Positions 35,001 to 51,747 of a stretch of DNA of 64,000 bases are shown in pieces; within the stretch, counting starts at the first letter, position 1, and each line of letters begins with the position of its first letter. The DNA comes from a virus: positions 186,001 to 250,000 of the IMG/VR virus record IMGVR_UViG_3300032242_000723. One strand, written 5' to 3'. The position numbers were made by a program, and so were the translations under genes. The notes beneath the pieces were generated by a model. That model made no database searches, had not been told where the DNA came from, and saw only the letters and a list, made by a program, of their open reading frames with translations.

Positions 35001-38000
35001 ATTAACTGTTGCCCCTTCTACTGTACAAGCATTTGGATATAACGGTGCAAGTTGGATCGCAGTAGGTAGCTCTATCATGAGGAGCACTAACACTATTGAT
35101 TGGAATACTGTCTATACGTATAATCCAACTTATGATATTGAACTTTACGGTGTTACTAACGTCAACTCAGCTTCGTTCACTGGATATGTTGCTGTAGGTT
35201 CTGGTCTACGTCCAGACTATACAACTGGTGTAACCGAGTTAGTACCTACAAACATAATCTCGTACAGCACAACTGGTGAATATTGGAATGATGTTGCGTC
35301 ACTTACTCCGAAAGGAATGTACAGTGTAGCAGTAGAACAGAGTACAGGTAAGTTGATCGCAGTAGGTCAATCGGGCATTGTATATACGAGCTTGAATGGT
35401 GCTAGTTGGTTAGGAATAACTGAAGTGACAGTCACCTCAGTTAACGCAGCAACTGACACATTAAACGTAACAAATACTTCTGGTTTAGTACTAAATCAAA
35501 CAGTTCGTTTCAGTGCTTCATTCTCGTCAATCGTAGCAGGAACAACTTATTACGTAAAAACTATCGTATCTGCAACGCAAGTGGAGCTTTCAGCAACATC
35601 GGGCGGAACATTATTTGACTTGACTACTGGTTCTCCTGTCGCACAAACAATGATGAATGTGTATGATGATACTGATCCTACTCCGGCAACATTACGTAGT
35701 GTCATCAATCCAGATGGAGTATGGGTAGCAGTAGGTGATTCAGGCACCATCAAGACATCAACTGATGGTAATGTTTGGACTGCAGGATTATCAGGTACTA
35801 CTGAAAACCTAAACAGCGTAACATACGCTGACGGCACATATATAGTGACTGGCGATAACGATACTATATTGACTAGCAATAGCTTAACTTTAGGCGGAGT
35901 TATTTCTGCTATACAATATGACACTATTACAGGGTTCAATGGTCAATCAAATCTTGTTATCACTGCTGGAAACGGTGCTAATGATGCAAGATGTAGTGTA
36001 AGTGGGGGAGTCATCTCAATAACAACTCCGGGTACAGGTTATCCAGTAGGACAAACAATAGCCTATCTTGGTAGCGGTGGAACACGTATAGTCATAACAG
36101 TTTCAAACTGGATCAACTCTTCAGTCTTTGTTGATGCTCCTGCTATCTATACTGTTAAAGGTGCAGACTTCTCGTATGGTTACGGACCAGAAGAGTTAGT
36201 ACCTGGTGTAATCACTGATAATCTAGCGATGACTGTTATTACATCACCAGGTACTAACTGGCCAATAACAGAATATTCACACAGTGGGTATAACGTTGCA
36301 TCAGTAGAACTATCACCTACTTCAGGAACACAAACCGTATACAGCTTTAACAATGTACTTCAGTATCCTATTCAAATAGCGGTACAGGTTCTTGATTCAA
36401 CTGACTATTGTGGGACAACACTTCCTGCAACAGCATATACAGTTAACTGGATCAACAAAACAATCACGCTTGCTACTCCGCTCGCATTTTCTCCTGCGAT
36501 GCAAAAGCTAAGAATTGATGTGTACGAAGTCGGCAACGGGAACCAAATCGTTAAGTCTAATACTGATACTGATCCTATTAGAATTAGCGTAACAGGTTCT
36601 GGCTTCAATGATATCTACTTAAGCTGTAACTATAGTGCGACAATCACTGAAGGTAGCGGAGTAATCAGACCTGAAACGTTCGATGTAACTATCACTGCAT
36701 TAGAAACCTACAGTGGTACAGATCGTATCTTATGCGACGACACTGGCAAACTTTCGTTGAATATCCCAGTAACCTTCAGTGGTGCAGTATTCGGTGGGTT
36801 AGTAGAAGATACTACCTACTATGTCAAGTCAATCAGTGCTGCGACCAGTTCGTTTACTGTTTCTGCTTCGTTTATCTCTGGAGCCGGTCTAGCTGGTCCT
36901 GTGTATAACTTATCAGATGCAACTGGTTCAATGACTGTAAACATACAGAATGGTACTGGAACAACATGGTCTACTCCTATCGTCTATCACAATGGTACAA
37001 AGTTGATTCCAGGTGGAACTACAGTCGTTACTAAAACTACTTCAGGCACAAACACGATCACTACAAACTCGACTAGTGGATTTATTGTGAATAATCCAAT
37101 CACGTTTAGTCAGACAATGTTCGGCAATGATATCGTACCATTCACGAGATATTATATCAAATCAATCGTTAGTGGATCTAAGTTTACTATTTCTGCTACA
37201 CCGGGCGGAAGCACTTTGGTATTAGCAGATGCAACTGGAAGTGCAAAAATCATCACAAATGACTATGCATTCGGCATTCAACCAAATGGCTTTGCTGCAA
37301 GAATCATCTTCGCGACAAACACATATACTAATGCAACTGACTATCTAGCATACTCAATGTTCGGTGAAACTGTTCCCGTTCAATATGGTTATACTCTTCC
37401 TGAAACTCAAGTGTTTGCAGGTAACGGTTCTACTGCATCGTATATATTAGATAACTATATAGGTCAAGAAAATGCACAGAACGCGATAGTCGAAATCAAC
37501 GGAGTGCGTGTAACAAGTTCACGTTATAATATAAACTTTAGTACCAATACTATTCTATTCAATAGTCCTCCACCTGCTAGCTCGGTTGTAACTGTGACTA
37601 CGTTCAATGATACTTCAAGACAATATTTGAATACTCAGTTCGGTATTACAGGTTCACCTGGATCTGCGTATACTTCATTGACCGTAGGAACTACTACTCA
37701 CGTTACTGGTACGTTTGACCAAAATACTCCTACTGCCCAGTCATACGATCAAAACACTCCTAGCGTGATATCGTTTGACGAAAACTATAGTTGGTTAACG
37801 CTATCGTCGGGAAATACAAGTTCTCTTACTATCAATGGATCAATCGCATTTGATGCTCCTACTATTGGTGGCGTTGTTGCAGGACAAGTTTACTATGTTT
37901 CTCAGATTTTGAACTCAACTGAGTTTACTATTTCTGAATTGGTAGATGGCGAAATATTCCAGTTAACAAATGCAACAGGTTCAATGACATCTAAGTCAAA

Positions 38001-39840
38001 CGGACTTCTTGTTACCCCGATATCAACTATAACTAACAACATTACTGGTCCCGTCGCAGTCACATATTCAACTGCTACAGACGGAACAACTGAAGTCATT
38101 ACATGTGGTGATACAGCAGGATTCGTTGTAAATCAAACAGTAGAGTTCAAAGGGGTAACGTTTGGCGGGATACAAGTTAACGGAACTGTTTACTTTATAG
38201 ATAGTATCTTGAGCGCCACTACTTTCAAGATAAAAAATGCTGCCGGAGTTATAGTGAATCTATCAACAGGTACAGGCAACCTACAAACTATAGTAGGAGG
38301 AACCCCTGCTGTTAGAGTGGTAACTACAATAAAGCATAATCTAACTGAAAACATTCTAACTAGAATTGATGGTACAACTGGATCAGTGCAACTTAACAAT
38401 AATTCATATTATGTTCACATTATTGACGACTACACATTTGATCTATATACCCAACCATATGATCCGGCATTCGGCGCAGTAAACTATCCTGTAACTACTA
38501 TTGCAGCATATACAGGTGGAGGCTATGTTTGGAGAGCAGGAACATTTAGAATCTATAATACAACAGCGACTGCCACTACCAATGATAGTAGCATTTCTAC
38601 TATCAATTCTGGTATAATAACTGGTTACACTATGACGTTTGGATCGGTTACTGGTGACCCAATAAGAATTGGCATGGTAGTTACTGGATCAGGTATTCTA
38701 CCTAATACAACTATTATTGGAGGTGCAGGTCTATCTTGGACGGTTGACAAATATCAAAATACTTCAGCAACAACTCTTACTGGAACATATCACGCATATC
38801 CAATCACTTGTGCAAGTACTTCTAAGTTAGTAGTTGACACTCCAGTTTACTTTGCTGTAACCGGAGCATTAAACGGAACTGCAATATTAGGTGGTCTAGT
38901 TCAAGCGACTGAATACTATATTAAAGAAATCTTAAGTTCAACTTCGTTTACAGTTTCGGCTACAAAAGGTGGAGATGCATATGCATTAACTACAGCTACT
39001 GGCATAATGACTGTAGCACAATGGAGTCAGATCAACGTAGATCGTTTATGGGTAACATTAAATGGCACCCGTGTTCCTTCTTCTAAGTTAAAAGTAAATC
39101 CGGTTAATGAGCTAAGTATCCTAACACAGATCGTGCCAGGTGATGAAGTCATAATCACAAGCATGATAACACATGGAACGCCAGATCAAGAAACTTACAT
39201 CAACTTTGTCGATCCGACCGGAGAAGCGTCAGTGTATAGAGCAAATACTAAAACAAGAACTTGGTTGACTCATGCATTATACGAACAAAGTACTGAGATA
39301 CAAGTTCAAGACATTGGTACAGTAACTAATATTGTGGTTCAAAATACAACTGCGCCTAATATCGTAGATAATTACTATAGTATAGGTATGACAGTTGATA
39401 AACAAACAATGGCAGGAACAACAGTGCTAAACAATAGAACAGGAAATTATATCAGTAGCTTGTACTATAAAGTTGTAGTGGAAGAGTTATCTCCTGTCCT
39501 AAAGATTACGCCAGGTGCTTATATCTCTAGCGGAGATTCATTGACAATCACTACACTTGAGGGTAACACTATATTGATCAACGGTGAACAAATCAAGTTT
39601 AGCACAGTTAACTTTGCTACCAATACACTTAGTGGCTTACAACGCGGTGCTAACGGTACAGGTGTTCAGTCGGTAATCGCAAAGTACAGTGAAGTGTACG
39701 GTCTACTTTCAGCCAATAAACTACCAGTTGCTTACTACGATCAAACATGGAACTCAAATGTTTGGAACGTGACAGATGGTGATCCATTGCAGATCAGTGA
39801 TACAGTACCTGCACAATTCTTGCATGTGGACATAACCTAA
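20023..39840 (+). CDS. giant virion protein (gp7-position wedge/fibre protein), 6605 residues
   Basis: One uninterrupted frame of 19.8 kb. The first part (RTLNFLPDIFQTPSNAEFFG, QGYVGSRFGTGVNAKDYYV, FNQYYWLPEGP) matches the large structural protein that follows gp6 in marine T4-like phages, in the place of gp7. Around residues 2420-3140 there are FG-GAP or propeller-like repeats (FGSTIVYAQASNIYVVSEP, GSKLALSDDARWLYVSD). Around 4905-5300 there are BNR-like repeats (SNDGIIWDI, SNTIDWNTV, TSTDGNVWTAG). A module of about 70 residues with FxVNxPVxF, FGG...YYV and LTxATGSM recurs about 13 times, mostly after residue 4100. It is likely a baseplate-attached fibre or host-contact protein. The length is extreme for a phage protein; no frameshift or stop is seen. 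Confidence 0.8.
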   Translation: MARIRTLNFLPDIFQTPSNAEFFGATLDQLVNPPSITKIQGYVGSRFGTGVNAKDYYVVEPTKTRVDYQLDPGVVFTKPNESVAKDFISYPGILDSIAMQGGIVDNNSRLFTSQFYSWDSFTDLDKTINFNQYYWLPEGPPAVTVAAASVFSKENYTVTDLPNGYSIAAGAGAGTINPTLTLLRGGTYTFSVSQTSQFWIQGAPGVSGYSPLQPNQPVRDVFGVSNNGASTGIVTFAVPSKTAQDEYAFPGNNVVDVVSTTPFDQVNGMPVTSTTNIDGVTALEGLRVMFYNTGVVNEIGYISSYFGETSFDTNNDLIVAPITLTVGSSSTTAFSLSSGTTALLNVGNTITFDNPVFGGITGGQVYYINEIVNSTDFKISLTLGGTNIALTSGSGTMTVNINQGLYEEGFYTTVAQNFYRVTYVGDPDSPVIRLVPDGLIPSEQRITPTYGNTWHNLPFYRNTLGVINLIPYITAPLDVLYYQDGTSSNKIGIIRLIENNLNNTINVETQILGKTNYTSTTGVAFTNGLKVKFDGDVIPSSYLTGEYYVEGVGTAIELVPVIDLVSPEKFTINQYILYDLLKYDIENFDSTLNIPVTPDYITIARNSISKNAWSRSNRWFHIDVINATATYNNDPTITTKYATGTNKAVRPIVEFYPNLKLWDSGIIGKNPVDFIDYRTTDALSTVSGSLNYYPDVQVYSTNTATITASSVIPIAASAMVPGTTYKITEVGTTNWNTVAGTIDQYYYVGQSVLCAVAGTGTGKGLPLTTSTTITVPASAVTGSLVNYMFIADSLNLLPPNSQITNISGTTTLTLTISWETPQQIVGGTSVSIVASDTTVNNYGLFPGARVVFAADTEVSIRNKIYVANFSSITPFSAPVITLTLAEDGVCLPDSQIVVTRGFTNQGLSFHFDGLNWNASQQKTNLNQAPLFDIFDENGISLGDTDIYQSTSFAGCKLFAYGYGSGTEDTVLGFPIRYSSFDNVGDISFDISFNLDTFDYVRNGAPINSKVNIGYVYNYTSATTNIRQLGWQTAIAPSIQYQNFSFNYVASAPNATFACNIAALANLATGEKGWPRVQVYINNVYQNSDTYKVDIGTNTTIITLLGDLPTVDTVVQIQVLSDQVSNVAYYSVPNNLNNNPFNADLTTANIGDIRAQYKDIFINAPNTTGSIFGANNYRDCGDLVPYGTKIIQNSASLAIPGAFLRNQEHNLFDALLFNSREYVKFKQLLVDTVQNSDYVQRYAPSQILDDALDQITAAKSQINAFFWSDMLPSKSPYIGNTYIFNNALENTFYPLSKIYNFSSANYDGVLVYLSRTVDNVLVQKQLTVNVDYVISADSPSLEIILPMQAGDQITIKEYNQTYGSYVPNTPTKLGVYPAFEPTVVLDSDYMVPTYFIKGHDGSFNKLYGDYNETLGVLIDFRDQALLEFELRVYNNLKLSAKVPIARYEVVPGYFRNPTYSWDNFLDIYSTSFLNWIGQNHLDYKTQYFTKNNEFSYNYTNSANKLDQTPIKQGYWRGVYEYFYDTTTPNETPWEMLAFANMPTWWTARYGPAPYTSDNGVLWGDLELGLIWNNGNPYIQPELARPGLSNIIPVDSTGALLSPLISIVGNYNPSTFNKDWVVGDDAPTELSYRRSSTYPFDLTRIFALTRPAEFFNLAVDLDNYKYNAEFNQYLVNDRSHLVPSNIEIYGNGTAKTSYINWIVDYEKQQGVDATTNITTLLNNLDVRLVYRLAGYSDKTLLKFYVEKASPNSRNASLLIPDESYSVLLYENQPFDQLMFSGVVIQQNKDYWTVFGNSQNVAYFETLDPRYNGQTETLTVENKTVKLAKDYGTTVTLVPYGTKFYSTQDVAQFLVSYGKNLESKGMMFDEIQNGVPITWAQMVNEFLYWTQTGWEDGSIITVNPAATKMQINPPSAIVQPLTIQQQNFILNQNLYPINLKDLCVNRDGTLFSAHTLSDGDAMSYAQFNISNFEHGIVFDNVTMFNDVIYNLTTGLRQNRISVRGTKTAEWNGTVNAYGFILNQDNVKEWNGNLKYTKGVIVKYKNKYWTALKVIEPTIKFNDQDWKEVDYANIQKGLLSNPSTRAYESVLYYDVNQANLEQDADLLSFSLIGYRPRDYLALVDLTDTAQVQVYKNLIKNKGTRNSINAFKGANLPQGGIQYDAYENWSIKTGKFGGVLNENFVEFKVNQEYMTGNPSIVSLTEGTYTVGSMQEVPLYSLFNYGSTIDSPNILSTTNAEPHTYLYPSAGYVNFNDVKMSSYFYSGLPFAVDGNGITVPIQSFYVGEYMWLANFKERWEVYRWKPVGQVVQVRNNLNATATVTFSTPHGLSKYDPMSIINFADNINGYYIVTEIVSLTEILINLTANVSGTSAIQGRGIGMKFESQRVATPADIAALDLTENEFIKNTVWVDTNNDGNWAVYRKSINYLYQTELEKSGTTTLGSAVAYTPQMGYLVSDAAAGKLYRYAYDALTETYALAETKTGSTSFGSTIVYAQASNIYVVSEPTSGSPKVYIYVLNNTVVSDDIVTYQTPIAAPGGVTNWGSKLALSDDARWLYVSDSANNKVYVYRQDRIKLNAGYFVVGQTYIITSVGTTDFTAIGAIDNQIGITFVATGVGTGNGTATQITYRQSTIIDGASYGLTLGDGFGKAIATGSDSSVLVVGAPEVDYSATITDWGKAYAFTRTVQNFNVQSSSLPNQPQTYKLGWTPTAGTARTASATSASTNRITCSGSMTGFAVNDPVVFAGATFGDSNVSPTQVYYIHGISGSEISIKLSRSSTTAVQLKNASSLSFSVYVQVDPLYVQINGIMVDDNNYGVIGSNFVYYGTTFAGDIINVSDNQFYLTQTFNSKYTDRVGAHFGYAIDCTSRCTDILIGSPFEIDTADQEGAAYRFTNGGARYGLVVGAAVCNITAPTQVLINGYLTYLPIGNATVIAKAINQSQIINVQATATADNKLIIQLIDTTLAQVNDKLVITAFDTTTLTQLGIQVYTNTQIIKCPHTQGPSQFGTNIKYNEFDSVLISAPAGTRYEGTVFDFTDDENFDNDTVFDNNATRFVESYPNAGAVYMFDYLEEYNESVITSGAYVYAQSVNNTSTDYGYNPNYGAALEFNDNIVVVGAPDYLPASVGGQVTVYNNATGITDWAIFRQSAAVVDIEKIQNTQLFSATTNNTLINFDYIDPLQGKILGAARENLDFVTSVDPAKYNSDVNAPTNYIWGADHVGMLWFNTANTRFVNYHQNDVVYNSKHWGQLFPGSDVAVYSWIASFIPPVNYQGPGVPLDINKFCVNAVLNSSDVLSPIYYFWVRNTNVIFTQTGKTLSDNVVASYIANPAASGIAYMAPLLPNTFAMYNAGDYFNANDTVFHIGYANGTTDDVSHQEFALIREDYADDFLPGIPGITDTLTYASIDGKTTYSKYGHPEGLYAKLLDSLSGADGAGQVVPNPYLPFAVQSGVLARPRQSLFYNRFMALDNYLSYANTILAQYPITELREELSFLFTSGEFFNTPDYWEYVNWWATGYDNNTKSSSQVPIYADLSSLNVVINTIVTVMQNGAGKAEVYRYDGNGVWTRIGLAQGTIAFKNTLWDYSAGKLGFSGNFFDTSPFDEYPSEETRNIIRALNEQIYIQDLLIYRNKSLILLFEYIQSETAESQNFLPWLNKTSLVDVAHTIRELKPYEVFKTDNQEFLAGYINEVKPYHVVIKDFLFKYTGAEVFEGDITDFDLPATYNSAYQEFITPELVYGVPENQYEFALSDNIWSTAPYSQWFANYGVSIEGQENYNITTLTSYLNRSSKYILVDNAQGFPINGVMMIGTEQIGYSLVDRALNKISGLIRGVNGTAVVDHIPGTPIIMDLPAVLLLSGGRGYSNPPRVTAYIDTGKYPEPTVPAEFEAVMNLDSVLSVNLVNPGQGYAVLPEIIIEPAEQIYFDTTAVNSSLHTITMYAPNLRTGDMLQYKVITGTSVGLLADNQWYYINVLEDTPTAIVALYKNYSNAINDHDRIMLYYQGIGNVSLNLGARASAVTSAKPIRENSISIKFDRTTYTSQVVDWKTGAFYGSFFAGNYSVATTSSSSSLLLESTQPDINTVLASAQGTLFEIAKVNNDRNLTWSSFVRSVYSTVGGTDDIVRLRPLDGIGNPFSYEVNASGTTIGFYVGMPIKFAGAVAGGIIENQIYYVHNIVNGTDFQLTLNEDGSGPAVNLTTATINAAGLGCYTGQVTDTAVLTVNYPGILQVTNTAKTTNYLTVPMSLIGTGGTRGFYTNLPIFFTGKVFGNIVENETYYITTVVDNETFTMSLHTDPVTTMVTATTTSTNIITVDSTDGFTINDPIIFNTMVISGSSVATFGNIVSGTTYYVSQIISPTQMTISTIVNGAVFTLANATGTAVVTNQKDVLQLTTASGSMTMNVSLPVSPGQVDGQLFTLYSSSVQYPNISSGIIANLLERQVTASITSVNRLAISELSGGTDLFYTNMPFQLSTSTGGIPASTTYYVVDYSGMPIPDVDHPGEYIPLPNIQTLVSFASSTGNLLTCDSTASLYAGMPIVFSGISLGGIEIGVTYFVRTIPSGTTFTISAIKNGSTFVLTNQGGIMLGTGEPYITVTNILGNPAVALSNGIGTTLTQHVTGTPSFDLSYMAGGYSAIISSAGSGFAINNTIAIAGTAVGGTSPTNDVTLTVSAISSTGAITHVIPAGTVPGTDAQYYLKVRSPNTFGVYSNALMTVPVSGIDFGYVGFTSAKITNINSSNNRLTVADTSIFAVNDAVVFTGTVQTSLTNIIAGETYYIYDIPNATQFRICTNPGDVGTIVTMVTTIAVDFTMTTPGSYAFLAEPFYFNQSIVRFNNRIYVCVVSNNDDTFVLGKWEQLDSGDRRMNAMDRTIGYYQPTINMPGLDLTQLFEGVTYPNSTYKGNAFEPSQQFTLDTILQDRPFYPTQVNTVASAYKEGIYYAVANLPDYTGILKSNDGIIWDITKLTSSNLNATSIFNTSAFYLIGTTNTATPIFRSEYNLDPTWSALTVAPSTVQAFGYNGASWIAVGSSIMRSTNTIDWNTVYTYNPTYDIELYGVTNVNSASFTGYVAVGSGLRPDYTTGVTELVPTNIISYSTTGEYWNDVASLTPKGMYSVAVEQSTGKLIAVGQSGIVYTSLNGASWLGITEVTVTSVNAATDTLNVTNTSGLVLNQTVRFSASFSSIVAGTTYYVKTIVSATQVELSATSGGTLFDLTTGSPVAQTMMNVYDDTDPTPATLRSVINPDGVWVAVGDSGTIKTSTDGNVWTAGLSGTTENLNSVTYADGTYIVTGDNDTILTSNSLTLGGVISAIQYDTITGFNGQSNLVITAGNGANDARCSVSGGVISITTPGTGYPVGQTIAYLGSGGTRIVITVSNWINSSVFVDAPAIYTVKGADFSYGYGPEELVPGVITDNLAMTVITSPGTNWPITEYSHSGYNVASVELSPTSGTQTVYSFNNVLQYPIQIAVQVLDSTDYCGTTLPATAYTVNWINKTITLATPLAFSPAMQKLRIDVYEVGNGNQIVKSNTDTDPIRISVTGSGFNDIYLSCNYSATITEGSGVIRPETFDVTITALETYSGTDRILCDDTGKLSLNIPVTFSGAVFGGLVEDTTYYVKSISAATSSFTVSASFISGAGLAGPVYNLSDATGSMTVNIQNGTGTTWSTPIVYHNGTKLIPGGTTVVTKTTSGTNTITTNSTSGFIVNNPITFSQTMFGNDIVPFTRYYIKSIVSGSKFTISATPGGSTLVLADATGSAKIITNDYAFGIQPNGFAARIIFATNTYTNATDYLAYSMFGETVPVQYGYTLPETQVFAGNGSTASYILDNYIGQENAQNAIVEINGVRVTSSRYNINFSTNTILFNSPPPASSVVTVTTFNDTSRQYLNTQFGITGSPGSAYTSLTVGTTTHVTGTFDQNTPTAQSYDQNTPSVISFDENYSWLTLSSGNTSSLTINGSIAFDAPTIGGVVAGQVYYVSQILNSTEFTISELVDGEIFQLTNATGSMTSKSNGLLVTPISTITNNITGPVAVTYSTATDGTTEVITCGDTAGFVVNQTVEFKGVTFGGIQVNGTVYFIDSILSATTFKIKNAAGVIVNLSTGTGNLQTIVGGTPAVRVVTTIKHNLTENILTRIDGTTGSVQLNNNSYYVHIIDDYTFDLYTQPYDPAFGAVNYPVTTIAAYTGGGYVWRAGTFRIYNTTATATTNDSSISTINSGIITGYTMTFGSVTGDPIRIGMVVTGSGILPNTTIIGGAGLSWTVDKYQNTSATTLTGTYHAYPITCASTSKLVVDTPVYFAVTGALNGTAILGGLVQATEYYIKEILSSTSFTVSATKGGDAYALTTATGIMTVAQWSQINVDRLWVTLNGTRVPSSKLKVNPVNELSILTQIVPGDEVIITSMITHGTPDQETYINFVDPTGEASVYRANTKTRTWLTHALYEQSTEIQVQDIGTVTNIVVQNTTAPNIVDNYYSIGMTVDKQTMAGTTVLNNRTGNYISSLYYKVVVEELSPVLKITPGAYISSGDSLTITTLEGNTILINGEQIKFSTVNFATNTLSGLQRGANGTGVQSVIAKYSEVYGLLSANKLPVAYYDQTWNSNVWNVTDGDPLQISDTVPAQFLHVDIT

Positions 39841-43201: not shown

Positions 43202-44013
43202 CTCGCGGAGTACTACTGTTCGCCTTTAACTCTCTCAAATATAACTACTATGAAATGGCATTACACACTGCCAAACGTGCTAATCACTTCTTGGGACTAC
43301 CAGTAACGCTTGTTACTGATGAAGAATCGTATCCAGATGATGAGACATATGTTTGGGATAAGGTGATTAAAGTAGTACCCGATAAAGATAACTTTAGAGA
43401 TTGGGGACAGTGGATCAACAAAGGCAGATACATGGCCTATGATCTTAGCCCATACGATGAGACTATTCTATTAGACGTAGATTACGTTATCAACTCTGAC
43501 AAACTACTGACAACCTTTAACATATATGAAGACTTTGCTTGTCACAATAAGACTAACTTTTTGATGCACCCTGATGCTTCGCAAGAGTTATTGTCAGCAT
43601 ACAGCTATGAGACATTGTGGGCCACTGTGGTTACATTCAAAAAGTCAACTAGGGCAGAGCAAATCTTTAGATCACTAGAAATGGTTCAGAAGAACTATGA
43701 TCACTATGCTAATATACATTCATTCATTGCTGGTGTATACCGTAATGACTATGCACTAACACTTGCGTTACGCATTGTTAACGGACACAGTACTAATCCT
43801 AGTGATGTAATACCATGGGACCTAGTGCATGTCGGTAAGAACACTCAAATCTATGCGAATACCACGGATGAGTTCAATACAGAATATACAGTAATGTTTG
43901 ACAACTGGCAGCGTGGTAAAATTCGCAAAGAGTATATCACTATCAAGGATATGGATTTCCACCTCATGAACAAGGATTTATTTAAGGAGATTATTAATGG
44001 AACTGACGACTAG
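43198..44013 (+). CDS. GT-A-type glycosyltransferase-like protein
   Basis: 271 residues. The N-terminus GVLLFAFNSLKYNYYEMALH fits the nucleotide-sugar domain of GT-A enzymes, and ETILLDVDYVINSD (around residues 88-100) carries an Asp-x-Asp metal motif. Later blocks include CHNKTNFLMHPDASQE and VIPWDLVHVGK. The likely act is transfer of a sugar from a nucleotide-sugar to a virion protein or glycan; neither donor nor acceptor can be read. Its start overlaps the preceding stop (ATGA), and it overlaps the next small gene by 17 bases. Confidence 0.65.
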   Translation: MTRGVLLFAFNSLKYNYYEMALHTAKRANHFLGLPVTLVTDEESYPDDETYVWDKVIKVVPDKDNFRDWGQWINKGRYMAYDLSPYDETILLDVDYVINSDKLLTTFNIYEDFACHNKTNFLMHPDASQELLSAYSYETLWATVVTFKKSTRAEQIFRSLEMVQKNYDHYANIHSFIAGVYRNDYALTLALRIVNGHSTNPSDVIPWDLVHVGKNTQIYANTTDEFNTEYTVMFDNWQRGKIRKEYITIKDMDFHLMNKDLFKEIINGTDD

Positions 44014-44224
44014 TATGTTAAATGTACAACCCTATATTACTGGAAACGCATTTGGCTATTTTAACCCAAGTACTCTTACTACGGCTTTTCCAGATTTTGT
44101 AGGTAAGTATAAGGCGATACCAGTATTTGACCCGATAGAAGCACCGTTCGGTGGGCATATACTAGAGTTTGAAAATAGTGCAGATAAGATGTGGTTTATA
44201 TTAAAGCATGTTAAACATGGATAA
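43997..44224 (+). CDS. small protein with C-terminal FEN..DKMWF signature
   Basis: 75 residues, starting inside the end of the glycosyltransferase gene with AAGGAG 8 bases upstream. Most of it is unremarkable (NAFGYFNPSTLTTAFPDFVG), but the end LEFENSADKMWFILKHVKHG has the pattern seen at the end of the ten small proteins at 48094-50482 (Phe, Glu, Asp, aromatic, Phe-x-Leu). This looks like a stray relative of that family. No function is known. Confidence 0.65.
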   Translation: MELTTSMLNVQPYITGNAFGYFNPSTLTTAFPDFVGKYKAIPVFDPIEAPFGGHILEFENSADKMWFILKHVKHG

Positions 44225-46247: not shown

Positions 46248-46727
46248 ATGAATAACTGGAAAGACTATGTGGGATATCAACCACTAAACGAAGAAGAATT
46301 ACCTAGAGCTTATTATTCCTTAGTTTATACTACTACAACAAATGAAGACGGATCATTAAACGTTTCTACTCGTATCAATACAGTAGCAATAGGCATATCT
46401 GAAATGACGTTGACTGAAAATGAAGTGGGGAAGGCAGTAGAAGATGTACTATCAACATTTCCAAAACGAGAAATCAAAAATATTGTTGAACTACAACGGG
46501 CTAAAAACGAGATTGCTCTTACTACGCGACACACCTTTCCGGATACTAACTTCAATGATGTTTGGTATTATAATGGTCCTGGATCAATCGACAGTGCAAT
46601 TTATGTTATCAGTTATATGGGGCATTATGCAGTTAAAAAGCATGTTGATTTTGAAAAGTATGGTTTTATTGTAACATCTACTCCCACAGCCAGTGAACAA
46701 CCTATCAAGTTTGTACCGCTAGAATAA
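46248..46727 (+). CDS. unrecognised protein
   Basis: 159 residues, soluble, alpha/beta-like, starting MNNWKDYVGYQPLNEEELPR. The middle has AIGISEMTLTENEVGKAVED and FPKREIKNIVELQRAKNEIA. I recognise no family. It starts 3 bases after the preceding gene with AAGG and its stop overlaps the ATG of a radical SAM gene (TAATG), so it is co-translated with it. It could be a partner or substrate of that enzyme, but that is only position. Confidence 0.5.
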   Translation: MNNWKDYVGYQPLNEEELPRAYYSLVYTTTTNEDGSLNVSTRINTVAIGISEMTLTENEVGKAVEDVLSTFPKREIKNIVELQRAKNEIALTTRHTFPDTNFNDVWYYNGPGSIDSAIYVISYMGHYAVKKHVDFEKYGFIVTSTPTASEQPIKFVPLE

Positions 46728-48127
46728 TGTCAAACGAAACCAATAGAATCAAGGATATCCAGATCAGAGTAGAGAACGAGGCTACTCCTACATTCTGTAT
46801 GGCTAAGTGGCACCATGTGACATTATATCTACAAACTGGCGAAACACATTCTTGTTATCACCCACAACCACACAAGATTCCTTTTGCTGAACTCAAAGAT
46901 AATCCTTCTGCATTACACAATACAATGCACAAGAAACTTGAGCGTAAAGAGATGCTTGAAGGCAAGAAGCCAACTGGTTGCGAATATTGCTGGAAGATTG
47001 AAGCACTTGGCAAAGACTATATCTCTGATCGTCATATTAGAAACAGTTCTATCTTTACTGAAGAACGCTTTGAACAGACGGTCAGAGGACCCTGGGACCA
47101 GAACATCAACCCAGAATATCTTGAGATTAATTTTGGTAACGAGTGTAACTTTCAATGTGGTTACTGTCATCCAAAGTACTCTACTAAGTTCTATAAAGAG
47201 ATTGAGAAGTTCGGCCCAGTAGAAAGTGTAAAGAATCATCGCTGCGATATTGACTGGATGAAGTTATATCAGCGTGAAGAAGAAAATCCATATGTAGATG
47301 CATTCTGGAAGTGGTGGCCTGAACTTAGGCAGACACTAAACATCATGCGTGTTACTGGTGGCGAGCCAACACTGCACAAGAGTACATGGCAACTGTTAGA
47401 CAAGATTGAGGCAGACCCCATGCCCTGGTTAGAACTTAACATCAATAGCAATCTTGGTACAAAGAACATATTGATTGATCGTCTTGCAACTAAGGTAAAG
47501 AAGTTCTGTGACGAGGATAAGATTCAATCGTTCAAGTTGTTCACATCGCTTGACACCTGGGGACCTCGTGCCGAGTACATTCGCAATGGTCTTGACCTTG
47601 AACTATGGGAACAGAACTTCCACACATATCTGACAAAGAGTGACAGTCCAATCACATTCATGGTCACGTTCAATATCTTCTCAGTAACGACATTCAAATC
47701 ACTGTTAGAGAAGTTCTTAGAGTGGCGTAGACAGTATGGCTGGTACGAGCACAAGACAAGCGACAAGCATAGAGTACGCTTTGACACCCCATACCTTCGT
47801 GATCCATTACAATATGATATGAACATCCTTCCCAAAGAAGAGTACATGCCCTATATGCATGACGCATTGAAGTTCATGGAAGACAACCTAGACGATAATA
47901 GACACGACGCATTTACCACGATTGAGTACGAAAAGTTCAAAAGAGTGGTTGACTATATGGCAGAAACCGTTTACAGTGAAGACAAGTTAGTTGAAGGTCG
48001 TAGAGATTTCTACAACTGGTTCAATGAGTTGGATGATCGCAGAGAGACAGATTTCTTGTCAGTCTTTCCAGAAATGTTGGAGTTCTATAGGCTATGTCAA
48101 CAAACGAACTTATCAAACCCGATGTAA
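46727..48127 (+). CDS. radical SAM protein (N-terminal twitch-like type)
   Basis: 466 residues. The iron-sulfur motif is CNFQCGYC (Cys140, Cys144, Cys147) after LEINFGNE, with TGGEPTLHKSTW as the SAM-binding GGE. The N-terminus FCMAKWHHVTLYLQTGETHS followed by CYHP, and GCEYCW near residue 85, resembles the N-terminal twitch region of the twitch radical SAM family and may bind an extra cluster. Such enzymes make radicals on peptides or sugars. It has a different motif context from the three paralogs at 50479, 51744 and 53583, and is the most divergent of the four. Confidence 0.8.
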   Translation: MSNETNRIKDIQIRVENEATPTFCMAKWHHVTLYLQTGETHSCYHPQPHKIPFAELKDNPSALHNTMHKKLERKEMLEGKKPTGCEYCWKIEALGKDYISDRHIRNSSIFTEERFEQTVRGPWDQNINPEYLEINFGNECNFQCGYCHPKYSTKFYKEIEKFGPVESVKNHRCDIDWMKLYQREEENPYVDAFWKWWPELRQTLNIMRVTGGEPTLHKSTWQLLDKIEADPMPWLELNINSNLGTKNILIDRLATKVKKFCDEDKIQSFKLFTSLDTWGPRAEYIRNGLDLELWEQNFHTYLTKSDSPITFMVTFNIFSVTTFKSLLEKFLEWRRQYGWYEHKTSDKHRVRFDTPYLRDPLQYDMNILPKEEYMPYMHDALKFMEDNLDDNRHDAFTTIEYEKFKRVVDYMAETVYSEDKLVEGRRDFYNWFNELDDRRETDFLSVFPEMLEFYRLCQQTNLSNPM

Positions 48128-48357
48128 AAGCTGGCTGGTCTATGGATTACCAGATGATCCGTTTGGACAACTTCGCACGACGAGGATGGTCTAAGGATGC
48201 GAACGGTGTAACATACAGTGTCAGTGCGAGAGTGAGGCCTGAGATTGAACGCTGGGTTAGACAACAAAATATTGATATGTATGAAATATTAGATAATCGT
48301 TACATTTGGTTCAAGGACCCTGAACTTGAAACTCTCTTCCTGTTGAGATGGTCATGA
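48094..48357 (+). CDS. small tandem-family protein 1
   Basis: 87 residues, overlapping the radical SAM stop by 34 bases with AGG before the ATG. Shared family features are RGWSKD near 30, a Trp-Val-Arg-Gln-Gln-Asn in the middle (ERWVRQQN) and the end WFKDPELETLFLLRWS. The stop overlaps the next ATG (ATGATGG). It is closest to the next protein in the row. Function unknown. Confidence 0.7.
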   Translation: MSTNELIKPDVKAGWSMDYQMIRLDNFARRGWSKDANGVTYSVSARVRPEIERWVRQQNIDMYEILDNRYIWFKDPELETLFLLRWS

Positions 48358-48623
48358 TGGCGCTTTGTGAGACCGAGGCCGACGAGATCATTCGCACCGC
48401 CGCCGTCGATATATTCGGTGACGCCGGAAATCTGGACCACTATATTGATCGAGGTTGGCACAAAAAGACAAAAAGTACCTATATTATAGCTGCCCTTTTT
48501 CCTGAGATTAATGAGTGGATCAAGCAACAAAATCCTGACATGATTGAAGAAGTTGTAGAGGAATATTGTTATCGTTTCAAGAACCCTGAACTTGAAACCC
48601 TCTTTCTGTTAAGGTGGGGATGA
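48354..48623 (+). CDS. small tandem-family protein 2
   Basis: 89 residues. I chose the ATG at 48354 that overlaps the preceding stop; an in-frame ATG at 48348 is possible. It shares RGWHKKTK, NEWIKQQNPDM and the end FKNPELETLFLLRWG with protein 1, so the two are a recent duplicate pair. The first 30 residues differ and are acidic. The codons for Arg-Trp-Gly supply AGGTGGGG just before the next ATG. Function unknown. Confidence 0.7.
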   Translation: MMALCETEADEIIRTAAVDIFGDAGNLDHYIDRGWHKKTKSTYIIAALFPEINEWIKQQNPDMIEEVVEEYCYRFKNPELETLFLLRWG

Positions 48624-48850
48624 CTATAAAAAGACTACCATACGAAGTCATACTTGAAGACTTCCACGGGTCCGCACATGCTGAAGTATGGTGTGAAGAA
48701 CAGTTTGGTAAACGCTGGGGTCCATCTAGTGATCGTTTTGGTAACTGGGCGGCCCTTAGTGTCCCACGCCTCCTTTCAGCGCCTACTAAAATCAAGTTTC
48801 TCTTCGCAAATGAAAAGGACGCTATATTCTTTAAGTTGAGATGGTCATGA
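48620..48850 (+). CDS. small tandem-family protein 3
   Basis: 76 residues from the ATG in GGGGATGA. It has VWCEEQFGKRWGP in the middle and ends FANEKDAIFFKLRWS, the family signature. The N-terminal half (MTIKRLPYEVILEDFHGSAH) is unlike its neighbours. An in-frame GTG at 48614 is unlikely to be used, since it lies in the preceding gene's last codons. Function unknown. Confidence 0.7.
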   Translation: MTIKRLPYEVILEDFHGSAHAEVWCEEQFGKRWGPSSDRFGNWAALSVPRLLSAPTKIKFLFANEKDAIFFKLRWS

Positions 48851-49113
48851 AGTTTAAGTTACGAGAAAATACAAATCATGTAACCGATTTCGTGACCCAG
48901 GAACTAAAATTAAGATCCATATGGGAAAGAGGTTACGCATTTTGTGGAACGGCTTTGGGCAGGTACAAGGTTTACCAGCTAAGAAATGACGTTGCTGAAT
49001 GGGTGCATCAGCAAGATCCTACTAAGTGGACACGGTATGAAGTAGAGTACTCGCACGATGTTTACCACTTTAGCGATGAACTCATGATGCTACTAATATT
49101 AAGATGGTCATGA
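48847..49113 (+). CDS. small tandem-family protein 4
   Basis: 88 residues from the ATG overlapping the preceding TGA. It shares WERGYAF, AEWVHQQDPTKW and the ending FSDELMMLLILRWS with the family. The central Trp-Val-x-Gln-Gln-Asp matches proteins 1, 2 and 9. No transmembrane or signal segment. Function unknown. Confidence 0.7.
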   Translation: MKFKLRENTNHVTDFVTQELKLRSIWERGYAFCGTALGRYKVYQLRNDVAEWVHQQDPTKWTRYEVEYSHDVYHFSDELMMLLILRWS

Positions 49114-49361
49114 GTACAATAGCACAAAACAATAAGTTCATTCTTTTTCGCAAAAAGTTTCAGCGTCCCAAAGGCGGCAGCAAGAACATGTTTGTTGTCT
49201 CGCTATTGCTGCCTTATTATTATACCCAAGATGAACGATCAGAAGTACTAAACACTTTGGTATCCTTTAACGGACGAGAGTGGGGAAGTTTGTCTGCTGT
49301 ATTTCGCAAGAAAGTAGATGCTGAAAAGGCATGGATATTTATAACGTTGAAATGGGGATGA
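49110..49361 (+). CDS. small tandem-family protein 5
   Basis: 83 residues. It is basic at the N-terminus (FRKKFQRPKGGSKN), has a hydrophobic strand FVVSLLLPYYY and ends KVDAEKAWIFITLKWG, so the signature keeps Asp, Ala, Phe and Lys-Trp-Gly. It lacks the Trp-x-x-Gln-Gln middle. The start overlaps the preceding stop. Function unknown. Confidence 0.65.
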   Translation: MSTIAQNNKFILFRKKFQRPKGGSKNMFVVSLLLPYYYTQDERSEVLNTLVSFNGREWGSLSAVFRKKVDAEKAWIFITLKWG

Positions 49362-49603
49362 CTAAGAAATATTTCATTCCTATTAGCGATAGTGAAAAAC
49401 GGTTCCGTCCCGGAAACTTTCCTTCTGGTACCAAATTCTATCTTACGATTGAAAGTTGGAGAAACTTTGTCAAGGCATGTGAGTATGATGACAAAGTAAT
49501 CAAAGTTTGGTTAGAAACCGAATATAACGCTAAGCTAATAAATGATGTTATTGTCTTTGAGGATGAAAAAGATAAAATCATGTGGTTATTGAGGTGGGGA
49601 TGA
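49358..49603 (+). CDS. small tandem-family protein 6
   Basis: 81 residues from the ATG in GGGGATGA; an upstream in-frame ATG at 49331 lies deep in the previous gene and is less likely. It has KVWLETEYNAKL and ends FEDEKDKIMWLLRWG, one of the clearest copies of the signature. Function unknown. Confidence 0.7.
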   Translation: MTKKYFIPISDSEKRFRPGNFPSGTKFYLTIESWRNFVKACEYDDKVIKVWLETEYNAKLINDVIVFEDEKDKIMWLLRWG

Positions 49604-49830
49604 GTGTCACATATATAACTGATGAAGACATTACTGATAAGCTTTGGGACGAGTATGAGGCGGGCTGGCCAGTAATGCCGGGCTTTACAGAATGGTTGCG
49701 TGATGTTAGAATCCCATATGCTGTTACGATAAAGACTGTTCATTCCGGCGATATCAATGGCTTTACCTATGGATGTAGCATCAGATTCAAAGAGGAGAAA
49801 GACTTGACTTACTTTCTGTTGACGATATGA
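49600..49830 (+). CDS. small tandem-family protein 7
   Basis: 76 residues. It shares ITDKLWDEYEAGWP, EWLRDVRIPYA and FKEEKDLTYFLLTI with protein 8, its duplicate. The signature keeps Phe-x-Glu-Glu-Lys-Asp and Phe-Leu-Leu but has lost Arg-Trp-Gly. The start overlaps the previous stop; its own stop overlaps the next ATG. Function unknown. Confidence 0.7.
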   Translation: MSVTYITDEDITDKLWDEYEAGWPVMPGFTEWLRDVRIPYAVTIKTVHSGDINGFTYGCSIRFKEEKDLTYFLLTI

Positions 49831-50039
49831 GCATAATCTACACTGTAGATCCTGATCTTGTTACTCGTCTTTGGGAAGAATGGCTTTGGTTACCACAAAA
49901 GCTACACTTTGATAACTGGATGCGTGAAGTCAGGGTTCCATATGCCGATGATGTTAATATACATATAAGCTCCTTAATTGACTCTCAAATAATATTCAAA
50001 GAGGAGAAAGACTTGACATACTTTCTGCTGACGCTTTAA
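49827..50039 (+). CDS. small tandem-family protein 8
   Basis: 70 residues, paralogous to protein 7: VTRLWEEW, NWMREVRVPYADD, FKEEKDLTYFLLTL. The pair must be a recent duplication, since the DNA of the last 40 bases is nearly identical. It is followed by the only gap in the row (21 bases). Function unknown. Confidence 0.7.
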   Translation: MSIIYTVDPDLVTRLWEEWLWLPQKLHFDNWMREVRVPYADDVNIHISSLIDSQIIFKEEKDLTYFLLTL

Positions 50040-50040
50040 A

Positions 50041-50057
50041 TAATATGATATATATTA
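50041..50057 (+). promoter_or_regulatory. inverted repeat in the only gap of the small-gene row
   Basis: TAATAT (50041-50046) and ATATTA (50052-50057) are inverted around GATAT. TTTAAATA at 50035-50042 resembles a late promoter box with one mismatch. A weak internal promoter or mRNA structure is possible; the signal is weak in such AT-rich sequence. Confidence 0.25.
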
Positions 50058-50060
50058 TGT

Positions 50061-50300
50061 ATGAGATTAGTCTTTGATCCAGTACCTGATAATCCATTAG
50101 TACTACAGTATACACTATTACATCCTAATGGGGTCCGTAGTGTAACTGGACTTAGAGGTCCATATACTGATCACATAGAAAAATGGTGCAAAGAACAAAA
50201 TTGCGGGACCTTTCTTCAGTACGAGAATCCCGGATTCATGTACCATGTAAAATTTGAGAATACTGAAAAGTTAGCGTTCTTTCTACTGAGGTGGGGATGA
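50061..50300 (+). CDS. small tandem-family protein 9
   Basis: 79 residues with EKWCKEQNCGTF in the middle and FENTEKLAFFLLRWG at the end. The N-terminus starts MRLVFDPVPDNPLVLQYTLL. The ATG has no strong ribosome binding site and follows the 21-base gap. It ends in AGGTGGGGATGA, which starts protein 10. Function unknown. Confidence 0.65.
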   Translation: MRLVFDPVPDNPLVLQYTLLHPNGVRSVTGLRGPYTDHIEKWCKEQNCGTFLQYENPGFMYHVKFENTEKLAFFLLRWG

Positions 50301-50482
50301 GCGTAAAGCTTTACACTGTCTCAGGTGTCATAATGCTTGACTGGATAGAAAACGAGATCAGAGAAAAAGAGCCGGGCAACTATAGGGTAGTAGCAGTGCA
50401 GAAAGCTAATAAAGTATATGAATATTGGCTAGAGTTTGACGATCCTGCAGAAGAAACGTTTTGGAGATTGAAATACCAATGA
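50297..50482 (+). CDS. small tandem-family protein 10
   Basis: 61 residues, the shortest in the row. It ends YWLEFDDPAEETFWRLKYQ, a weakened form of the signature (Phe-Asp-Asp, Glu, Phe-x-x-Leu). IMLDWIENEIREKEPGN gives the central Trp. The stop overlaps the ATG of the next radical SAM gene, tying the small-protein row to the enzymes. Function unknown. Confidence 0.65.
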   Translation: MSVKLYTVSGVIMLDWIENEIREKEPGNYRVVAVQKANKVYEYWLEFDDPAEETFWRLKYQ

Positions 50483-51747
50483 ATATAGATAAAAATCATC
50501 TGTTAAACGAGAGTAAAGAATTCTGCATGATGCCATGGATACATATGCATACCACGCCATCTGGTGCTAGTGCTCCTTGCTGTATAGGCAGATCAATTGC
50601 AAGTACAGATGGCATGGGCAATGCAGCTAATCATAGTCTACTAGAACTTGTCAACTCAGAAAAAATGAATCAACTACGATTAGATATGTTGTCCGGAGTT
50701 CGCAACAATGAATGTAACAGTTGCCATGTTCAAGAAGAGCACGGGCAAAAATCTCACCGAATACATATGAATCAGCAACGCGATCATTTCTTTGACGAAG
50801 CAGTATTAAACACTAATGTAGACGGGTCACTAACTAACTTCAAGATGCGAGAGTTTGATATGCGTTTCTCTAACCTATGCAACTTTAAATGCCGAACCTG
50901 TACTCAAGAATATAGTTCAGCATGGGAACAAGAGAACAAAATACACGACAAACTGCATTATAGACGTATCACTAGAAACAATAACAAACAACTATTACAA
51001 GAAGTAATCGATCATATTCCCCATATGGAACATGCATACTTTGCAGGTGGTGAACCACTGATCATGGAAGAGCATTATATCTTATTAGAAGAGATGATAC
51101 GTCAACAACGCACTGACATTCAATTGAGATATAGCACTAACTTTAGTAACCTCAAGTTCAAGAATAAAGATTTGCTTGGTTTATGGAAACAGTTTGATAA
51201 GCATATATTAGTTTTTGCTAGTATTGATCACGTAGGTGAACGTGCAGAATATATACGAGCAGGTACAGATTGGGGAAAAGTAGAAGAAAATTACATACAT
51301 GCATCTGCTATTCCCAATATTACAATGAGCATCAATGCAGTATTAAGCGTATTTAATTACTTAACCTTTGACAAGTTCTATCAACACTTAATTGACAAAA
51401 AAATGTATCTACCTACCGGATTTATCAATACTGTATACTTCATGCAGGATCCTTCATATCTAACATGTCACTTACTTCCTACGGATGATTTACGAAATAA
51501 AGGTAAAGAAAGTATGAGATTCACAGTTGACCTTATGAAGAGTAATGGATTTGATAATAGACATACCGATCCTTTAGAGTTATCACATGCTTGGCTAGAC
51601 TCAAGTAACACATGGAACAATAGGTATGATCATGAAATTACTATAGGTGAGAAGTTTAAGCAAGAGATATTACGATTAGATAAGATTAGGGGTCAGGACT
51701 TCACTAAAGTATTCCCTGAATTAGCAGTATTATTGGATACTAAATGA
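50479..51747 (+). CDS. N-terminal twitch-type radical SAM protein, copy 1
   Basis: 422 residues. The N-terminus MNIDKNHLLNESKEFCMMPW and PCC (Cys34, Cys35), then CNSCH near 75, form the twitch-like region that usually holds an auxiliary cluster. The core motif is CNFKCRTC (Cys134, Cys138, Cys141) after FDMRFSNL, and YFAGGEPLIMEEHY is the GGE motif. The ATG overlaps the previous stop, so the 18-base upstream extension in frame is ignored. It is a tandem duplicate of the next gene. It should use SAM to act on a peptide or small molecule; the substrate is unknown. Confidence 0.83.
   Translation: MNIDKNHLLNESKEFCMMPWIHMHTTPSGASAPCCIGRSIASTDGMGNAANHSLLELVNSEKMNQLRLDMLSGVRNNECNSCHVQEEHGQKSHRIHMNQQRDHFFDEAVLNTNVDGSLTNFKMREFDMRFSNLCNFKCRTCTQEYSSAWEQENKIHDKLHYRRITRNNNKQLLQEVIDHIPHMEHAYFAGGEPLIMEEHYILLEEMIRQQRTDIQLRYSTNFSNLKFKNKDLLGLWKQFDKHILVFASIDHVGERAEYIRAGTDWGKVEENYIHASAIPNITMSINAVLSVFNYLTFDKFYQHLIDKKMYLPTGFINTVYFMQDPSYLTCHLLPTDDLRNKGKESMRFTVDLMKSNGFDNRHTDPLELSHAWLDSSNTWNNRYDHEITIGEKFKQEILRLDKIRGQDFTKVFPELAVLLDTK

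Follow-up and report, generated by a model that had tools for sequence, protein, structure and literature searches.

The ten small genes that follow each other on the plus strand at positions 48094-50482 of the analysed stretch of phage DNA (64,000 nucleotides, hereafter the window) were shown by profile comparison to belong to one homologous family. The chances appear about even that such rows are translationally coupled sets of small, diversified binding proteins, with the host as their probable target.

Layout of the row and homology of its genes

Row 1 comprises ten genes of 61-89 codons each. Counted from the overlapping ATG codons, these are member 1 (48094..48357, 87 codons, leave-one-out E 5e-11), member 2, a duplicate of member 1 (48354..48623, 89 codons, E 7e-10), member 3 (48620..48850, 76 codons, E 3e-12), which falls into the most widely shared single-linkage cluster (cluster A), member 4 (48847..49113, 88 codons, E 3e-7), the most divergent member 5 (49110..49361, 83 codons), member 6 (49358..49603, 81 codons, E 4e-6), member 7 (49600..49830, 76 codons, E 3e-5) and its duplicate member 8 (49827..50039, 70 codons, E 6e-4), member 9 (50061..50300, 79 codons, E 2e-9) and member 10 (50297..50482, 61 codons). 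ATGA stop/start overlaps are present at nine of the ten forward junctions (1/2 to 7/8, 9/10 and 10/radical SAM), the 21 nt between members 8 and 9 being the sole gap. Member 1 starts 34 nt ahead of the stop codon of the upstream radical SAM gene SAM1 (46727..48127, plus strand; phrog_14086, E 3e-10), which is part of a conserved operon and holds the restart codon for member 1 in its 3' end. The end of member 10 overlaps the ATG (50479) of the downstream radical SAM gene SAM2 (50479..51747, plus strand; phrog_14086, E 7e-14). The ORFs as placed bear out the first-pass annotation, which had described ten tandem frames, all but one overlapping, in a row beginning inside one radical SAM gene and ending on the start of another. 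The setting is a glycosyltransferase and radical SAM operon downstream of a 6,605-codon gene. The isoelectric points of the members extend from 4.5 to 10.1; the charge varies widely, and a common basic character is absent.

Profiles built solely from sequences beyond the window (outside-only profiles) were tested on 262 window ORFs. They matched nothing beyond the row 1 genes and one isolated member (43997..44224, plus strand, between two glycosyltransferase-like genes; E 4e-4), with a best E of 4e-13, and gave zero matches to 2,200 shuffled copies. The leave-one-out test recovered nine of the eleven window members at E 3e-12 to 1.5e-3, the latter value belonging to the isolated member. Members 5 and 10 (ORFs 49104-49361 and 50291-50482) were not recovered alone; member 5 is placed by its position, its overlaps and its C-terminal ITLKWG, and member 10 was nonetheless matched by two outside-only profiles, one from Phosso and PA5oct only (E 8e-4) and one from the phage's own other loci (E 2e-4). 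The profile-profile comparison of row 1 with other rows gave E 3e-11. The earlier claim of a single family is supported by the outside-only profiles, the leave-one-out test and the clean shuffled controls, and the profile search suggested with it returned a large coherent set of relatives outside the window.

The family proteins are single domains of about 60-110 aa. Their conserved core comprises a Trp helix, a Phe-x-Phe strand, an Asp-Ala-x-x-Phe-x-Leu helix and an Arg-Trp end, the remainder being variable. The C-terminal pattern previously ascribed to the row is present in seven of the ten genes and missing from members 7 and 8 (LLTI/LLTL) and 10 (LKYQ). In their second halves, members 1 and 2 share 62% amino-acid identity (68% at the DNA level) and members 7 and 8 share 57% (62% at the DNA level); both pairs are duplicates, as had been proposed, but with such amino-acid identity not very recent ones. 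The nearest relative of member 6 belongs to row 2 of this phage (L001:13584-13802), with 61% amino-acid identity over the second half. The earlier suggestion that the genes arose by duplication and divergence is supported.

No convincing model was found in Pfam, PHROGs or NCBIfam (best E 0.0066-0.016, in isolated members), the best Pfam matches lying below the curated cut-offs where such cut-offs are given. The family is absent from PDB sequences, and PADLOC models gave no convincing match (one of 82 members, only at E 0.008). Weak matches to DUF7435, phrog_1387, LPD3 and AAA_21 were discarded as chance, and identity with ribosomal protein S6, from a PDB sequence profile at E about 1, was not accepted. 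A description of the family was not found in a literature search, outside whose coverage lay most subscription journals and bioRxiv preprints. Within the scope of these databases and literature, the family is undescribed, in agreement with the earlier view.

The dual-coded C-terminus

The Phe-x-Leu-Arg-Trp-Ser/Gly end is encoded as YTG-AGG-TGG-NNA-TGA and thereby holds both a Shine-Dalgarno sequence and the start codon of the next gene. The junction 15-mer TTRAGRTGGKSATGA, comprising the Leu-Arg-Trp-Ser/Gly codons, the stop and the next ATG, lies at 48343..48357 on the plus strand and again at 48609, 48836, 49099 and 49589. It has 11 exact matches in the 333-kb record, every one at a family gene end, and none elsewhere in the record or on its other strand.

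AGG is used at Leu-Arg-Trp in 8 of 12 cases in this phage, against a background of 10 of 365 (binomial p 1.4e-10). In a wider test of 245 members, none chosen by the DNA pattern, AGG was used in 64% vs 7% and the Leu codon was TTG or CTG in 84% vs 36%, while codon usage at the conserved Phe, Glu, Asp and Ala further upstream was near background. Shared ancestry was ruled out as the source of the AGG bias because these upstream codons show little of it. An ORF start falls within -12 to +25 nt in 233 of the 245 members. The codon bias was shown to be concentrated in the last codons, where it sets a Shine-Dalgarno sequence together with the start codon of the following gene, and we infer that the row may be read as a translationally coupled chain.

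A scan of 257 Gb of cellular genomes for the junction pattern yielded 25 stretches, 24 of which were set aside as chance since they contain no family gene. The remaining stretch, on a 6.4-kb MAG contig, does carry the family; the contig has 15 copies and is probably of phage origin.

Distribution among phages

The 333-kb record contains about 22 family copies (21 profile matches and member 5). Eight of them form row 2 at record position 72.2-74.1 kb, 160 kb from row 1, and single copies occur beyond the two rows, including 43997-44224, a position at which relatives have no family gene. Row 2 adjoins a DNA ligase gene, and expression timing may differ between it and row 1 in its glycosyltransferase/radical SAM operon. 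Sinorhizobium phage Phosso gave 48 profile matches in a record of 735 annotated features, and PA5oct and Atu_ph07 contain four copies apiece; the copy number per phage spans 1 to 48. Ten other jumbo or T4-like phages searched by profile had no copies. The DNA search of IMG/VR revealed at least 660 further distinct members and 102 arrays with three or more members. Besides, tblastn of single proteins against INPHARED found no match for three queries and only insignificant ones for two, the consensus query matched weakly and solely Phosso and PA5oct-like phages, and the IMG/VR degenerate-protein scan with member 2 gave no match. The family is widespread in jumbo phages.

With many homologous tandem copies in one large genome, the family belongs with the lineage-specific paralogue arrays of jumbo phages. 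The part of Hua et al. (2017, PMC5646251) drawn on here describes arrays in which over 30 similar genes stand in tandem, in phages G and 121Q, explains these jumbo-phage paralogue rows by tandem duplication and, unlike the present case, does not mention C-terminal dual coding. The present profile had no match in these phages (JN638751, KM507819) at E 0.01 or better, and the two families differ as far as tested with it. The zinc-ribbon expansion of phage G, with about 35 copies (Iyer et al. 2021, PMC7824862), is likewise a lineage-specific multiplication of one small domain in a single jumbo phage, but the family described here has no conserved zinc-ligand set and a predicted alpha/beta fold.

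Predicted fold, selection and candidate functions

It seems that a repertoire of binding proteins against different, mainly host, targets is the most likely function. Gene copies would arise through tandem duplication and be taken up into operons already present. The end of each gene carries the Shine-Dalgarno sequence and start for the next, and the row would be translated as a coupled chain. On a common scaffold, each protein would be adapted to a different target, with a role in host takeover or counter-defence. Anti-defence or other host-directed action is possible; no neighbour genes tying the family to defence or a host process were found. A more specific proposal, plausible although a little short of even, is a self-linking module whose C-terminal residues would be under dual selection, in the protein as the last part of the fold and in the RNA as ribosome-binding site and start codon for the gene that follows. 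Units could then be added at stop/start junctions, and jumbo phages could build rows of up to about 15 diversified small proteins against different host targets.

AlphaFold2 models of moderate confidence were obtained for member 3 (pLDDT 79, beta-alpha-beta-beta-alpha) and member 2 (pLDDT 73); in the predicted fold, the conserved part makes up the core and is no separate tag. Foldseek returned about 20 small uncharacterised phage proteins with a probability of 0.98 or more. BFVD proteins of uncultured Caudovirales (e.g. A0A6J5L980 and A0A6J7WGT2) resemble the predicted fold at TM 0.74-0.77 and similar length and, judging by the models, are probably members of the same family. The Foldseek suggestions from Burkholderia phage BcepSauron and Tenacibaculum phage pT24 had no profile match. 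The model has the strand-helix-strand-strand-helix order of ACT and ferredoxin-like domains (TM about 0.5 to an ACT domain), but no significant structural or sequence match to them.

A rather unlikely alternative is that the proteins serve the phage's own processes, as small nucleic-acid- or ligand-binding modules of ferredoxin-like, ACT-like or S6-like fold regulating phage translation or replication. The PDB fold resemblances, which include ACT, KH and RRM-type domains, the weak S6 matches and a syntenic single-copy relative in the DNA-metabolism region of distant phages point in this direction; however, every PDB match is insignificant (best E 0.7), and neither the widely varying charge nor the range in copy number agrees with it.

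Orthologues are under purifying selection: in comparisons between related phages, the median dN/dS is 0.10-0.30 for five of the six groups. The label 'fast-evolving' suits the highly diverged paralogues but not the orthologues, and decoys or hypervariability, raised earlier, are not favoured because of this selection. The same selection and the partly conserved gene order within rows between phages also speak against largely selfish cassettes, whose 3' end would give a start signal to the downstream gene with little benefit to the phage. This explanation, which would suit the entry of the row at a stop/start junction of a conserved operon, the restriction of the junction signal to the family in this phage and very long rows such as the 15 copies on one 6.4-kb contig, is considered improbable.

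Still more doubtful is a role as virion or injected proteins with a common C-terminal targeting domain. The constant C-terminus, the variable N-terminus and the location of row 1 downstream of the 6,605-codon gene among glycosyltransferase-like genes would be consistent with it, but the conserved part is the predicted fold core, DNA ligase and further metabolic genes are found near other rows, and the PA5oct members checked have no ESI-MS/MS note, which marks detected proteins in that record.

The radical SAM adjacency of row 1 is incidental, because 34 of the 36 classifiable relatives have the same operon without a family gene after SAM1. Both radical SAM genes are adjacent to each other in most relatives, and the restart site 34-40 nt ahead of the SAM1 stop is used in many of them. 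Operon comparison shows the family genes as inserted between the radical SAM genes, with apparent reuse of a pre-existing restart codon. The first-pass annotation had listed adaptors or enzyme substrates among the possible roles and had suggested a check of neighbours in other genomes. As substrates or adaptors of the adjacent radical SAM enzymes, the proteins would be peptide-modification precursors. Radical SAM genes on both sides of row 1 invite this explanation, and radical SAM is the commonest Pfam family flanking other arrays, but at 4 of 109 genes, a modest share given eight radical SAM matches in this one phage; a radical SAM neighbour is absent from row 2 and most other arrays. A conserved association with the modifying enzyme, expected of such precursors, is lacking in this family; a leader peptide plus a modified core would also be expected of them. 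In this family the conservation lies at the C-terminus, in what is modelled as the core of the fold. The explanation is largely refuted and very improbable.

Scarcely credible, and already contradicted, is a set of unrelated small ORFs alike only in a short C-terminal motif dictated by the ribosome-binding site: the Leu-Arg-Trp codons do double as that site and the leave-one-out test misses two members, but the biased codons do not cover the Trp helix, the Phe-x-Phe strand or the Asp-Ala helix, codon usage for the conserved Phe, Glu, Asp and Ala is near background, shuffled proteins are rejected by the outside-only profiles, and Leu-Arg-Trp persists in members without ATGA coupling.

The function of the many small uncharacterised genes of jumbo phages was named as an open question in a review of 2026 (PMC13282480). 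Dozens of such genes in individual genomes belong to this one family, and the profile together with the junction signal makes it annotatable. With its dual-coded end, the family provides a clear example, amenable to testing, in which the ribosome-binding site for a downstream gene would have shaped a protein C-terminus, and the rows are natural sets for binding-partner screens.

Layout and homology of the row

The ten small frames reported by the first-pass annotation are present on the plus strand at positions 48094-50482 of the window, which spans bases 186001-250000 of a 333,115-base virus record. Members 1 to 10 of this row (row 1) comprise 87, 89, 76, 88, 83, 81, 76, 70, 79 and 61 codons, counted from the ATG overlapping the preceding stop. 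The claimed stop/start overlaps were borne out, ATGA occurring at nine of ten forward junctions, including that of member 10 with the downstream radical SAM gene (SAM2, 50479-51747); the one row 1 junction without it is a 21-nt gap 3' of member 8.

The assignment of the row to a single family is supported by profiles built only from outside sequences, by leave-one-out tests and by a profile-profile comparison of row 1 with other rows (E 3e-11). Among 262 window ORFs, the outside-only profiles (Phosso and PA5oct; IMG/VR only; other loci of the same phage; all combined) matched only row 1 members and an isolated eleventh member at 43997-44224; the 2,200 shuffled versions gave no match. Leave-one-out recovered nine of the 11 window members, excluding members 5 (49104-49361) and 10 (50291-50482); member 10 was matched by two outside-only profiles, and member 5 was placed by its position, overlaps and ITLKWG end. 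The family has no convincing match in Pfam, PHROGs, NCBIfam, PADLOC or PDB sequences.

The expectation of a shared fold appears to hold for the two members modelled, as judged by the order of elements. AlphaFold2 predicted a strand-helix-strand-strand-helix arrangement for member 3 (pLDDT 79, pTM 0.68); in the model of member 2 (pLDDT 73, pTM 0.57) the core elements follow a similar order, preceded by additional N-terminal helices. Foldseek matched member 3 to about 20 short uncharacterised phage proteins (probability ≥ 0.98) and member 2 to phage proteins more weakly, with nothing significant in the PDB.

Distribution of the family

A further eight members, likewise linked by stop/start overlaps, form row 2 at record positions 72218-74127 (72.2-74.1 kb; L001:12219-14128), with a DNA ligase gene downstream. 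The exact junction 15-mer ends six of the eight. Single copies occur near 100.2, 268.2 and 296.8 kb of the record, which holds 21 profile matches, or about 22 counting member 5; this census profile includes window and row 2 members, whose scores there are by construction, and the independent homology tests are the outside-only and leave-one-out ones.

Profile searches found the family in the jumbo phages Phosso, PA5oct and Atu_ph07 and in at least 660 distinct IMG/VR ORFs. An 82-sequence profile gave 48, four and four matches in these phages, respectively, 1-8 in related IMG/VR contigs, 31 in a 240-kb IMG/VR contig, and none in RaK2, SCTP-2, 121Q, XbC2, P-SSM2, T4, phiKZ, phage G and two Vibrio jumbo phages. 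At least 119 IMG/VR stretches contain a 21-nt pattern made up of the codons for Phe-x-Leu-Arg-Trp-Ser, the stop and the next ATG; among those listed, 112 loci contain 690 family ORFs (660 distinct) and 102 arrays of at least three genes, with a maximum of 13, and 151 of the 174 pattern matches lie at the end of a recognised family ORF. In a control scan of cellular genomes, 24 of 25 stretches lacked family genes. The contig DLXM01000070.1 (6.4 kb, labelled Bacteroidetes MAG) carries 15 family genes in ~3.5 kb and is probably phage DNA that was binned with a bacterial genome.

Single-copy relatives in distant phages (L003:18158-18403 and minus-strand genes in L047, L062, L063 and L070) share a conserved gene context, preceding the same ~210-230-aa gene, and are a candidate founder of the family. 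In two related phages the family array encloses a gene for a subtilisin-like serine protease of 671 aa that has an apparent signal peptide (L096:4152-6167, L099:3645-5660); the L096 copy matches PDB subtilisins (E 1e-19).

Phages G and 121Q, with their arrays of > 30 similar genes (PMC5646251), and the zinc-ribbon expansion of phage G (PMC7824862) are the nearest known cases. As far as tested, the present family differs from both.

The dual-coded C-terminus

The sequence TTRAGRTGGKSATGA occurs 11 times in the record, each time at a family gene end. The Leu-Arg-Trp arginine codon is AGG in eight of 12 cases, versus 10 of 365 in a long-gene set of the same phage. Among 245 members not selected by the 21-nt pattern, AGG accounts for 64% versus a 7% background (1.8 bits), the preceding Leu carries 0.86 bits and the final Ser 0.94 bits; Lys at -9 and Leu at -5 and -3 carry 0.15-0.34 bits, and the conserved upstream Phe, Glu, Asp and Ala codons 0.00-0.09 bits. 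Inherited similarity would bias all codons, whereas the bias seen is local, which fits selection for a putative GAGGTGG ribosome-binding site. An ORF starts within -12 to +25 nt in 233 of the 245. AGG is also found in 72 of 109 cases where the next start lacks the ATGA overlap, which would fit other nearby starts. We infer that translation is probably coupled along the row.

Probable insertion, turnover and putative function

Relatives were sampled as 80 IMG/VR loci that carry the upstream radical SAM gene (SAM1, 46727-48127). Of the 40 nearest, which were tabulated, 36 could be classified, the few others having no recognised SAM1 or ending at it. The operon order, glycosyltransferase-like genes followed by radical SAM genes, is kept. 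Another gene, nearly always radical SAM, directly follows SAM1 in 34 of the 36, and one family gene does so in two (L010, L014). Member 1 begins at a restart codon 34 nt 5' of the SAM1 stop, and this restart site serves other genes in several relatives. Taken together, the operons without the row and this other use of the restart codon favour reading row 1 as inserted into an operon that already existed. The radical SAM link proposed by the first-pass annotation is thus not supported, given the 34 relatives and row 2, which has no radical SAM neighbour. Nor was a constant neighbour found elsewhere: the Pfam matches of 109 sampled flanking genes cover 38 families, none with more than four cases, a spread that argues against one dedicated partner.

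Other features of the region include a 159-aa gene (46248-46727) between a glycosyltransferase-like gene and SAM1, absent there in the relatives surveyed, and, upstream of the operon, one ORF of 6,605 codons (20023-39840). In a related phage, a 394-aa gene directly 5' of a family array (L098:4199-5383) has an N-terminus (CSLAHSG...CCAI) resembling that of the operon's radical SAM genes.

The earlier suggestion of decoys fares poorly. Of six groups of orthologues from related phages, five have a median dN/dS of 0.10-0.30 (the sixth has one usable pair), and single-linkage clusters recur across phages in partly conserved order; hence the genes appear to be functional paralogues that persist for long periods, with copies gained and lost, rather than hypervariable decoys. 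By the same clustering, most row members of the studied phage are peculiar to it. The PA5oct members checked lack the ESI-MS/MS mark in the annotation of the PA5oct record. Isoelectric points in row 1 range from 4.5 to 10.1, a spread consistent with one shared scaffold bearing different surfaces. The best inference, with about an even chance of being right, is that the family consists of putative host-directed binding proteins.
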